The notes beneath the pieces were generated by a model. That model had not been told where the DNA came from. It searched no databases and worked only from the letters and a program-made list of their open reading frames with translations. A DNA stretch of 64,000 nucleotides from the NCBI RefSeq assembly GCF_009392895.1, contig NZ_CP045488.1, positions 496,001 through 560,000 on the forward strand, written 5' to 3'. Of the stretch, positions 3,360-44,171 are shown piece after piece. Origin of the DNA: Natronorubrum aibiense (GTDB lineage Archaea; Halobacteriota; Halobacteria; Halobacteriales; Natrialbaceae). Numbering within the stretch: the first letter of the stretch is position 1; every line of letters begins with the position of its first letter. Position numbers and translations under genes: made by a program.

Positions 3360-3495
3360 TATGGAATCGGCAGTCGGACAGCAGCGCTGAGTGCTCGCTC
3401 GAACGTCCTGGACTGTCTTGGACGCGACAGTCGTGGCCCGGTCGAACGCGACGACTGCGAAAACGCAACGAGGCCGGCTCGGGACCCGAAAGCCG

Positions 3496-3531
3496 GGCTG
3501 GAACCTACCAGCACCACCTACCGTTCCAGCC
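3496..3531. ncRNA. Candidate structured RNA element, copy 1
   Basis: A perfect 9-bp stem, GGCTGGAAC (3496-3504) with GTTCCAGCC (3523-3531), closes an 18-nt loop containing CACCACCTACC. Just upstream, CCGGCT (3471-3476) can pair with AGCCGG (3491-3496), with TCGGG-A-CCCGA nested inside. This second hairpin shares bases with the first, so the two would be mutually exclusive. The same loop and stem core recur at 3835-3870. The strand of transcription is unknown; a protein-binding DNA site is an alternative. Confidence 0.4.
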
Positions 3532-3834
3532 AGTTCAGAATATATACCCCACCATATATAACGATTCTGCACAAGATTGGAACCAGTCGTCCGATCACGA
3601 CTCGAAGGCGTAGCCATCGGGACGGGTTCAACCGCTCCGACACATCACGGCTCCGACAGCAACGGGTCCGCTCGACTCAAGAGAACGCCACTACCTGAGC
3701 GAGTAGACGCCCGTCGCACTGTCGTCTGGCGATAGCGTATCAACTGTCACACACTCGCTCTCAGTTCGGCTCTCGTATGTGCGGTGATACCGACTATCGT
3801 GTGATTAAAGAGTGGGGTTCTCGAATCGGAAAAC

Positions 3835-3870
3835 GGGCTGGAAACGAACCACCACCTACCGTACCAGCCC
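3835..3870. ncRNA. Candidate structured RNA element, copy 2
   Basis: A perfect 7-bp stem, GGGCTGG (3835-3841) with CCAGCCC (3864-3870), closes a 22-nt loop. The segment ACCACCTACCGT followed by CCAGCC is shared with the copy about 340 bases to the left, while flanking DNA differs. Conserved loop and stem in otherwise diverged DNA suggest that the structure itself is selected. The function is not known. Confidence 0.4.
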
Positions 3871-3999
3871 ACTTCTGTATCAGTTCGCTTAGGTAATAGC
3901 CGTTGTGGCCAGCAGTTAGTAGTGCTCGAGAAACTCCTTTAGTTGATATCCAGTCGCTGTACCGGTAGGCGTATTCTTTAGTTCTGACACAGAGGAAGT

Positions 4000-4249
4000 A
4001 TGCGACAGCCCGGCGACTGGATGCAACAGCCGACCGACGATCGAGTTCTCGAGGCGTTGGATTCGTCGGGTATGATTCTCTCTCCAGCAGTGCTCGCGAA
4101 GAACATCGAACGAAGCCGCAAAGAGGTTACTCGTCGACTATGGGCTCGTCACCCGCGTCGAGCGAGGGTACTACGAGATCACCGATCTCGGTGAGCAGTA
4201 TCTCGCTGGTGAACTCGATGCAGCCGACCTCAAGCCGGATGACAGCTGA
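4000..4249 (+). pseudogene. Broken PhiH1-repressor-like winged-helix regulator
   Basis: The first frame starts at 4000 (MRQPGDWMQQPTDDRVLEAL) and carries the recognition-helix region NIERSRKEVTRR. It then reads into nonsense. Shifting frame at about 4134 restores VDYGLVTRVERGYYEITDLG and a normal C-terminus ending LKPDDS at 4249. Together these match the haloarchaeal PhiH1-repressor-like family of small winged-helix DNA-binding proteins. About five residues (expected RLSEL-like) are missing exactly at the shift. The junction reads act-cgtcgac-tat, consistent with a deletion between two short CGTCGAC-type repeats. The deletion removes the end of the recognition helix and shifts the frame, so the product should be inactive. 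Confidence 0.75.
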
Positions 4250-7128: not shown

Positions 7129-7142
7129 CCCCCCCCCCCCCC
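7129..7142. repeat. Homopolymer run of 14 C
   Basis: Fourteen consecutive C residues follow AAATACCT. The run lies about 80 nt upstream of the response-regulator start at 7224. In a GC-rich genome with low sequence redundancy this is the longest homopolymer in the window. It could vary in length by slippage and affect the spacing of upstream promoter elements, or be a sequencing artefact. Confidence 0.9.
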
Positions 7143-7790: not shown

Positions 7791-8630
7791 TCAGAGATCC
7801 GGAATCGAGTAGTTCTTTCCTCTTCCCGTCCCGGTAGTCTCGAGCAAGCCGTACTTATCGACGAGCGTGGAGAGATACCGTCGACGGGTTCGGTTCGGCT
7901 TTGGATTACCGATCCGTTCCTCGTACGTTGCATAGAGATCCGTGACACCGATCCGGCCAGCGTCGGCGACGATATCGTACAACAACCGCTTGTGCGTTCC
8001 CAAGGTATCGATGTGATCCTGTCGCAGATCGGTCCGGGCTGCACCGTGGATTGCATTAACATCGTCGTGCCTGATCTGCGATCGATCGTCTCGCACGACA
8101 CGCTTGGTGGCTTTCTCGAGGTGCTTGATCGCCTCTCGAGCATCACCAGCTGCGATATCGGGATGTACTCGACGACATCCATCGTGATCACGCCGGGCCG
8201 AAGCCCCGCGTCGATCCGCGCCAGCAGGATGGTCGACTAACTCTTGATGTGTGTACTTCCGAAGCCGAAGCGTCTCGGCACTCGAGAAGCTAGATTTGAC
8301 CCGCCCATTCAGCTGGTAGTTGGAGAAGAAGTCGTCTTCGTCGATCGTGATACCGACGATCGTCACGTTCGGGAGATCGCCGAGTCCCAACAGGAGTGTC
8401 TCGTCTTCCAGGACGTCGACCTCGTCGAGGATCGCAACGATGTGGTCGTCCGTGTCTCGAAACGTCTTGATGAACGTGCTGGCGGCCGTTCCGTCTCGAG
8501 AGAGGTGATTTCCGATTCCCGAGTCTTGTGCAAGCCCATGGAGCACCTCTGTCTTCGACGACTCGAGCAACTTGACGGTCTCGGTCGACTGGATGGACGG
8601 CGCGGACTCGAGCGCGACGGCGGATATCAC
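7791..8630 (-). pseudogene. Truncated, frameshifted Orc1/Cdc6 origin-binding protein
   Basis: The sequence resembles the haloarchaeal Orc1/Cdc6 AAA+ initiator: HIVAILDEVDVLEDETLLLG (Walker B), NVTIVGITIDEDDFFSNYQL (sensor 1), LRLRKYTHQELVD, DIAAGDAREAIKHLEKATKR (sensor 2), and a C-terminal winged helix ending GLLETTGTGRGKNYSIPDL. The N-terminal part with Walker A is absent. Between YTHQELVD and DIAAGDA the continuous frame is nonsense; the neighbouring frame there reads ILLARIDAGLRPGVITMDVV, so one shift near 8235 and a compensating one near 8160 are present. The remnant is probably from a plasmid or integrated replicon. Confidence 0.8.
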
Positions 8631-8726: not shown

Positions 8727-8969
8727 ATGATCGAACATGCCAACGGCCAGCCGGGAAACTTCAAAGTCTACCGAGCGTACCACGAGAAACTACGCCAAGC
8801 GGACGGCTGGTACTGCTTTGTCGTCTACAAGCCCCACGGTCGTAGTGGGTTGACCGTGCTGAAAGACAAGATGGTTCGCTCGAGCGATCTCCCGTTGCTC
8901 CGGTGGCACGGTGGCGGCGATCACCGCGGGACCCAACAGGCGAAGATCGCGATCGGCGATATCTTCTGA
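8727..8969 (+). CDS. Small haloarchaeal protein, possibly a C-terminal remnant
   Basis: About 80 residues from Met at 8727 (MIEHANGQPGNFKVYRAYHE), with GWYCFVVYKPHGRSGLTVLK, SSDLPLLRWHGGGDHRGTQQ and the end KIAIGDIF. Codon use and composition are haloarchaeal. The open frame continues upstream through LSEPAGT, with TTG possible at 8706, and proteins with this tail are usually longer, so it may be a fragment. I do not know a function. It runs divergently from the broken orc1/cdc6 and belongs to the same plasmid-like debris. Confidence 0.55.
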   Translation: MIEHANGQPGNFKVYRAYHEKLRQADGWYCFVVYKPHGRSGLTVLKDKMVRSSDLPLLRWHGGGDHRGTQQAKIAIGDIF

Positions 8970-43387: not shown

Positions 43388-43765
43388 ATGCAAGAGGATA
43401 CCAGTCACGATGAGATCGAGGAGTCGGCGCCGGAACCGATCGCGGAGGATCCGACGGACTCGTTCGACCTCGAGCATCCGGAACACGTCGAGGTTGGCGT
43501 CACCCGCGGCGAGACCGACCTCGAGTTCGGGCCGCCGCGGGACTATCCGGACCGGGCGGACGTCTCGGTTCGGCCCGAAGACGACGGGGGCCATCGACTC
43601 GTAATGAGCATCGACGCGATGGCCGGCGACCACGGAACGGGACACGCAGACGTCACGCTGACACCGGCAGAGGCTCGAGCGCTTCGAGACCAACTCGACG
43701 AAACCGTCCGCTGGATGACCGAAGACGACGCCGAACCGACAGCATCGGACGACGACGCGCGCTGA
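43388..43765 (+). CDS. Acidic protein of unknown function
   Basis: A 125-residue, very acidic protein. The N-terminal 40 residues are disordered and Asp/Glu/Pro-rich. The folded part appears from HVEVGVTRGETDLEFGPPRD through RADVSVRPEDDGGHRLVMSI and ends with DVTLTPAEARALRDQLDETV. The last phrase is a recurring haloarchaeal motif but no function is attached to it. Met at 43388 is preferred over the Met at 43379 by fit to the acidic start. Its stop faces the CBS gene, 1 nt away. Confidence 0.7.
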   Translation: MQEDTSHDEIEESAPEPIAEDPTDSFDLEHPEHVEVGVTRGETDLEFGPPRDYPDRADVSVRPEDDGGHRLVMSIDAMAGDHGTGHADVTLTPAEARALRDQLDETVRWMTEDDAEPTASDDDAR

Positions 43766-43766
43766 G

Positions 43767-44171
43767 TTACGCTGGGCTCGGCGTCTCCACGCGAGAGAGG
43801 TACGACGCCAGATCCGACGTGGTGAGCATCCCGATGACGCCCTCGTCTTCGTCGACGACGGGGGTGTGGTGGAAGCCGTGTTCGACCATCACGTCCGCAG
43901 CGTCGCGGATGTCGTCCTGTGCGGTGACCGTAATTACGTCTCGGGTCATGTACGCCGATACCGGCGTCCGGTCTTTGGGTTTGCGTTCGGCGACGATCTG
44001 TACGAAGTCCGTCGTCGTCAGAATGCCCTTGAGTCGGTTGTCTTCGTCGACGATCATCACCGAGCCGATATCCTCCTCGAGCATCAGTTTCCCGGCGTCC
44101 TCGACGAGCGTCTCCGGCGTGACCGTATGTACGTCTGAGGACATGACTCGCGCAACGAAAATGTCGTCCAT
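43767..44171 (-). CDS. CBS-domain pair protein
   Basis: A 134-residue protein made of two CBS domains: MDDIFVARVMSSDVHTVTPE, then IGSVMIVDEDNRLKGILTTT and a second repeat RDVITVTAQDDIRDAADVMV, then HHTPVVDEDEGVIGMLTTSD. Such stand-alone pairs bind adenine nucleotides and act as energy sensors of a partner enzyme. No enzymatic domain is present and no partner is adjacent. Confidence 0.9.
   Translation of the reverse strand: MDDIFVARVMSSDVHTVTPETLVEDAGKLMLEEDIGSVMIVDEDNRLKGILTTTDFVQIVAERKPKDRTPVSAYMTRDVITVTAQDDIRDAADVMVEHGFHHTPVVDEDEGVIGMLTTSDLASYLSRVETPSPA

Follow-up and report, generated by a model that had tools for sequence, protein, structure and literature searches.

Two related hairpins in a 64,000-nucleotide stretch of the Natronorubrum aibiense genome (the window, by which we mean the whole stretch of DNA that was analysed) are probably paralogous genes of a family of trans-acting small RNAs (sRNAs) which, judged by comparison across genomes, would block translation of a gene encoding a DUF7344 protein. 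At the level of sequence we find an RNA family with a covarying stem, a conserved loop and a promoter-like box, together with a conserved mRNA leader to which the loop is complementary. A broader reading, which we find as easy to believe as to doubt, is that each genome carries one or more paralogous RNAs on interchangeable scaffolds, all antisense to one 39-nt leader and controlling a single DUF7344 regulator beside superoxide dismutase (SOD), with selection acting on the antisense segment and the leader whilst the carrier turns over.

Two hairpins with a common loop

The hairpins share an 11-mer loop motif (CACCACCTACC, at 3512-3522 and 3850-3860, a spacing of 338 bases), which occurs twice on the forward strand and not at all on the reverse strand of the 4.35 Mb genome; a control with the reversed pattern gave no match. 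The features of the two copies are as follows:

3475-3495 (+): upstream hairpin of copy 1, CGGCTCGGGACCCGAAAGCCG, from the predicted fold.
3496-3531 (+): copy 1 hairpin, 9-bp stem and 18-nt loop, from the predicted fold and matches to the family models, of which this hairpin is itself a seed.
3496-3504 and 3523-3531 (+): the two sides of the copy 1 stem, GGCTGGAAC paired with GTTCCAGCC.
3513-3524 (+): copy 1 antisense segment, ACCACCTACCGT, a 12-nt perfect complement of the leader (duplex −25.8 kcal/mol).
3555-3570 (+): copy 1 3′ box, TATATAACGATTCTGC, recognised by eye, resembling TATAATGGTTCTGC of other members.
3798-3810 (+): copy 2 promoter-like block, CGTGTG followed by a TATA-like ATTAAAG (3804-3810), common to genomes G295 and G217.
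3835-3870 (+): copy 2 hairpin, 7-bp stem, GGGCTGG (3835-3841) paired with CCAGCCC (3864-3870).
3844-3863 (+): copy 2 antisense segment, ACGA(ACC)ACCACCTACCGTA.

Sequence and folds bear out the initial annotation, which had described two related stem-loops with a common loop. Compared with dinucleotide shuffles, the hairpins folded alone gave z-scores of −2.60 (51 nt) and −2.96 (56 nt), the signal being weaker in longer pieces (−1.90 for 95 nt around copy 1, −0.18 for 101 nt around copy 2), and the convincing support for the predicted hairpins is comparative, not single-sequence folding.

The annotation had also given copy 1 an alternative upstream hairpin that excludes the main one, as in an attenuator. 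The upstream hairpin exists, but the exclusion does not hold, as the minimum-energy fold of 3451-3545 contains both hairpins together, competing for about one base (in this piece the outer six pairs of the main stem have pairing probabilities of 0.41–0.59). A transcription attenuator, or some other cis-acting leader of the next gene, could make use of the upstream hairpin in copy 1, yet this co-existence speaks against it, as does copy 1 having no TATA-like box at the usual distance upstream, and the predicted downstream genes differ between loci, lie on either strand and are often hundreds of bases away. Across 44 loci and the window, our own simple gene-prediction script placed only one doubtful locus (L127) inside a predicted gene, with flanking genes on either strand and no gene consistently downstream. 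We find the attenuator scarcely credible.

Range, stems and promoters of the RNA family

The 4227 models of Rfam returned only a tRNA from the window at gathering scores, and no match at E ≤ 1 from 3380-3960. A BLAST search with 3440-3900 recovered copy 2 in three more genomes of the same genus (4 of 31 genomes, the window's own included). A broad gapped pattern, run over 293 genomes, matched in at least 122, mostly by chance judging by a control that also matched widely, and among the matches listed only those in G240 (two places), G249 and G106 were taken on; a contig scan yielded 74 stretches, three with haloarchaeal names and 71, left unread, with bacterial names.

Covariance models extended the set considerably. 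The first, built from nine hairpins, produced 28 hits at E ≤ 0.1, spread over 20 of the family's 125 genomes. The second (28 sequences), run over 392 genomes of the order, matched in 29 at E ≤ 0.05; 28 were of the same family, including two doubtful ones (L121, L122), and in the sole genome from outside it (G129) the match lies inside a long predicted gene. The third model (31 sequences) matched in 31 of the 125 family genomes at E ≤ 0.01 and in 65 at E ≤ 1, with at most four matches per genome at the latter threshold. We read 40 of the 54 matches to this model at E 0.001 or weaker by eye: about half combined the loop with a TATA-like box or had a similar layout, the rest were coding-like or unclear. 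These searches, which include the check that the annotation had named for itself, found further copies in dozens of genomes, and the hairpins appear to belong to an RNA family that in the samples searched is confined to the Natrialbaceae.

The loop is damaged in a few members (L061, L272, L302, L304). In L288 (G340) and L335 (G337) the same antisense segment, ACCACCACCACCTACCG, is seen by eye between two small hairpins, not in a loop. Before the counts over 69 members given below we dropped, by our own judgement and not blind, L121, L122, L127, L277, L278, L280-L283, L285, L287, L295-L298, L300, L303, L307, L308, L310 and L311, along with all lax-search hits other than L318, L328 and L335. Among the latter was the repeated hairpin of G223 (CAGGGTCGAATCGAACCACACCACCG..), found among six model matches in that genome (L317, L330, L339) and rejected as a family member as it resembles a mobile repeat.

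The stem changes in a manner that preserves its pairing. In alignment A5 all nine stem pairs show two-sided changes, which fill 47 cells where the shuffles average 9.8 and none of 500 reached that number, and slid controls fell far below the true pairing; alignment A3 behaved likewise, with 28 cells, both alignments having been fitted to the model and so biased in its favour. Gene order, which is independent of these model-fitted alignments, shows that the stem has been replaced at one position. Near aIF2beta-DUF5789 (less than about 0.7 kb from DUF5789 and less than about 1.2 kb from aIF2beta) there are ten loci from five genera, in which the stem is GGGCTGG in two and GCGGTAG in eight, with an ACC-rich loop in all. 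The stem would be a scaffold, its sequence free to change whilst pairing and loop are kept. Besides these two unrelated stems at one gene position, the seemingly interchangeable scaffolds by eye also take the form of a double hairpin or of a linker between two hairpins. A protein-coding reading was rejected, as hairpin lengths, from 38 to 52, differ by non-multiples of three.

At a second conserved position, flanked by S24e/BNR and EF1A, lie the copies of the window, G295, G217 and G240, and G305, G307, G327 and G211 match it on one side; the remaining members lie at other gene positions. Conserved blocks that flank the hairpins at fixed distances on either side, and two direct copies 338 nt apart, would also be expected of a mobile element or recombination site, such as the end hairpins of IS200/IS605-type elements or REP-like repeats, and relatives of a small protein, DHRGT, lie near 8 of 26 loci compared. 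Such an origin nevertheless fits poorly with so few matches per genome, with the conservation of both gene positions in several genera, and with stems that differ between members whilst the loop is kept, which leaves it very improbable. The end of the upstream block resembles what we take to be a haloarchaeal repeat, and a CRISPR-repeat or creTA origin was considered.

The DHRGT protein itself (..WHGGGDHRGTQQAKIAIGDIF) is encoded in the window at 8727-8966 (+). Its relatives stand directly upstream of the RNA gene in L072, L073, L081 and L087, a longer relative in L087, which contains WEFKA, being nuclease-like by eye. Neither Pfam nor NCBIfam gave a match for the window's DHRGT protein or for the 104-aa neighbour.

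A promoter-like signal precedes the hairpins, at positions outside the models. Over 47 hits, which include doubtful ones and many close relatives, A+T content is 81–83% at −30/−29 from the hairpin start and 13–17% at −36/−35. The family-wide A+T peak spans seven positions (−31 to −25), which we take to fit an archaeal TATA box; the G/C dip at −36/−35 is not special alone, because the single positions −48, −43 and −24 are equally low. In many of L052-L054, L064-L068 and L071 a block like GTYAACYAATANCGTGGG stands right before the TATA-like box (about −46 to −33), and may be where a regulator of the RNA gene binds. On the other side of the hairpin, by eye, the box TATAATGGTTCTGC follows after about 31 nt in L044, L045, L048, L053 and L068, where an RNA end and a downstream promoter are both possible readings. 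Since copy 2 retains the promoter-like box and copy 1 the 3′ box, copy 2 is probably the active one. A similar pair in G217, 316 nt apart, has the same division of promoter-like box and 3′ box, as if an old tandem duplication had been followed by complementary loss.

Complementarity to the DUF7344 leader

The genome contains the complement of the loop, GGTAGGTGG, at eight further sites, one of which lies 7 nt ahead of the ATG that opens a 131-aa frame. This frame matches DUF7344 (PF24035, E 1.9e-21) and has an iron/manganese superoxide dismutase gene downstream:

G000:C1, about 43520-43951: DUF7344 gene, 131 residues, on the same contig as the hairpins and away from them.

The leader of this gene is found in 10 of 10 Natronorubrum genomes, where it varies little from GGTGGTTTCGAATGG-NAAY-NNN-SGGTAGGTGG, ending at the ATG. 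A pattern search allowing up to three mismatches detected the 39-nt leader in 108 of 125 family genomes, in single copy except for two in G329, and nothing with the reversed control. In the order sample it was present in 81 of 392 genomes, all among the 96 of the same family, and in 0 of the 296 others. A scripted scan of 40 loci found a long frame with a similar start sequence, beginning 7 nt after the block, in 39 (L219 escaped the expression) and an SOD motif downstream of the leader gene in 37; a TATA-like CTAAT stands at a near-constant distance from the leader, so that the mRNA start is expected at about GGTGG. A full-text literature search, whose scope mostly excludes subscription papers, found no paper on DUF7344.

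The conserved loop had been taken in the annotation to suggest RNA pairing, and its complementarity to a conserved mRNA leader supports this. In copy 1 the last two bases of the antisense segment lie in the stem, and 11 nt of the match fall within a 32-nt leader block. Copy 2 matches the leader over 13 unbroken nucleotides (3851-3863; ACCACCTACCGTA with TACGGTAGGTGGT) across the ribosome-binding site (RBS), and four more pairs past a 3-nt bulge bring the duplex to −27.0 kcal/mol. Over the 69 members the median unbroken match is 10 nt at this site (site 2) and 7 nt at the leader's 5′ block (block 1, site 1).

At site 2 the match is in part circular, since it was a search for the loop complement that led to the leader, and site 1, whose leader block played no part in finding the members, is the better test. 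There, 14 of 83 hits match over at least 10 nt (300 shuffles averaged 0.08 such hits and never exceeded 7, and the reversed and sense controls gave 0 each); in this set 17 dropped hits were restored, L318, L328 and L335 were left out, and leader-less genomes could not enter. The 14 hits come from six genera, but with eight from genus g2, and a few having been model seeds, they are not 14 independent events; some seeds already carried the site 1 complement, which makes the hits concerned less than fully independent. In genus g2 the RNA bears TCGAAACCACCACCTACCG, the two halves of which are complementary to the two leader blocks, and in G036 a hairpin without a clear TATA-like box matches block 1 over 16 nt.

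Protein-binding hairpins, too, typically combine a conserved loop with a variable stem, and the (ACC)n repeats resemble a tandem single-strand motif; the loop could on this account be the site of an RNA-binding protein, as a sponge or processing signal, matching the leader through a common partner or by chance. We regard this as quite improbable, given that the loop is antisense to the leader and does not resemble it (0 of 83 in the sense control) and that the complementarity is unbroken over as many as 12–16 nt in some members.

The 3′ end of 16S rRNA is CACCUCCU, and the C-rich loop resembles it. A general anti-Shine-Dalgarno RNA would pair through such a loop with many G-rich ribosome-binding sites, the DUF7344 leader being one of many. 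The energies leave room for this: by bare-loop duplex energy the leader's median rank among 467 upstream regions is within about the top 3%, and it comes first for 1 of 69 members, a modest rank because C-rich loops pair with many G-rich sites, and a number of other upstream regions equal the leader. Bare-loop duplex energy is a weak discriminator. The number of ACC repeats also varies between members, for example in L056 and L058, as might be expected of such an RNA. By longest unbroken match, the leader is unequalled by any of 479 control regions for 34 of the 69 members, and for the other 35 at least one control region does as well. Against a general anti-Shine-Dalgarno RNA, CTACC is retained in most loops and suits this leader's unusual GGTAGG rather than GGAGG, a second segment (CGAAACC, CCATTCGAAAC) in several genera fits leader block 1, which is not a Shine-Dalgarno (SD) sequence, and RNA and leader have the same taxonomic range in the searched samples. 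We consider it unlikely, and prefer an RNA directed at the DUF7344 leader.

Changes in the leader offer some further comparisons. Block 1 reads GGTGGCTTCG in two genomes; in one of these L118 carries GAAGCCAC, a match of 8 nt which was reached in 6 of 500 shuffles, and in the other L059 carries GAGGCCAC, which would fit via a G-U pair, a pattern that is no more than suggestive. Where site 2 has changed to CAGGAGGTGG, in five genomes, the search yielded no RNA whose loop compensates.

The RNA and the leader also co-occur. At E ≤ 0.01 the RNA was matched in 31 of 108 leader-bearing and 0 of 17 leader-less genomes (p 0.007, ignoring kinship), with 77 of the 108 leader-bearing genomes giving no RNA match at this threshold. 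Laxer filters applied to 23 leader-bearing genomes produced candidates in G036, G145 and G337 and unclear ones elsewhere, and by eye nothing convincing was seen in the 17 leader-less genomes, of which at least G350 (66% complete) is too incomplete to weigh much. A manually judged count of 49 genomes with the RNA gives a smaller p, the judgement not having been blind.

Proposed mechanism and known archaeal sRNAs

We propose that a TATA-box promoter ~30 nt upstream would start the transcript, which is predicted to begin at or just before the 5′ foot of the copy 2 hairpin. The stem would act as a scaffold and the loop would display the segment antisense to the 39-nt 5′ leader of the DUF7344 mRNA. 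Pairing would cover GGTAGGTGG, which stands where a Shine-Dalgarno sequence is expected, 7 nt ahead of the ATG, and would extend to the leader's 5′ block, GGTGGTTTCGAATGG, in some species other than this one. As the loop is antisense to the ribosome-binding site, the messenger would probably be switched off, ribosome binding being blocked and the DUF7344 gene likely repressed; activation or mRNA decay instead is possible. In the window, the RNA gene would have been tandemly duplicated. From these sequences we infer expression of the RNA, its pairing in the cell and a resulting hindrance of translation.

Compared with RBS-masking, trans-encoded sRNAs as a class, the candidate is at the sequence level a separate intergenic gene with its own promoter-like signal (copy 1 lacks the box), has a conserved secondary structure, and shows complementarity to the ribosome-binding site which is not unique by energy. 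RBS masking by an sRNA is already known in archaea, and scaffold turnover is the unusual trait here. In Methanosarcina mazei, loop 2 of sRNA154 masks the glnA2 RBS and sRNA41 is proposed to mask RBSs, as described in excerpts of a review (PMC5867862). As far as those excerpts go, the likeness lies in a stand-alone archaeal RNA gene for which antisense pairing of a loop or segment with an RBS is proposed, whereas those RNAs are experiment-based and from another lineage, the hairpins here are predicted from sequence, and the Natrialbaceae RNA matches a single near-invariant leader whilst its stem turns over. The M. mazei sRNA162 targets a bicistronic mRNA encoding a transcription factor (abstract of PMC3510493, excerpts of PMC5867862); likened by these descriptions, it too is a trans-acting archaeal sRNA with a target that encodes a regulator, but the target here is a DUF7344 gene beside SOD, in another archaeal class. 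Within the haloarchaea, sRNA132 of Haloferax volcanii is, in the excerpted text, found in Haloferax only, has predicted sites in ORFs or the 3′ UTR, and concerns phosphate (PMC6560208). On that partial account, both it and the Natrialbaceae RNA are intergenic haloarchaeal sRNAs at a conserved gene position, the site of the latter differing in being at the ribosome-binding site.

The oxidative-stress sRNAs of Haloferax volcanii reportedly include SHOxi. Likened by description, it is a haloarchaeal sRNA like the candidate, whose target adjoins superoxide dismutase.

Haloarchaeal (Haloferax) mRNAs are mostly leaderless according to the available excerpts of two papers (PMC6560208, PMC5867862), and an SD-directed sRNA across a haloarchaeal family would, if true, be a clear counter-example. 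It would also be the first regulatory link for the DUF7344 gene, and the near-invariant 39-nt leader is a ready target on which the pairing is testable base by base. A literature search by titles and abstracts, with subscription papers mostly outside it, found no paper on the hairpin motif, which does not prove novelty.

Elsewhere in the window we noted, by eye, a small winged-helix-like gene at 4000-4245 (+) which is apparently frameshifted, and a Cdc6/Orc1-like ATPase fragment at 7791-8630 (−), apparently broken over frames, in a region resembling decayed mobile DNA. A non-coding run of fourteen C at 7129-7142 lies ahead of a response-regulator gene.
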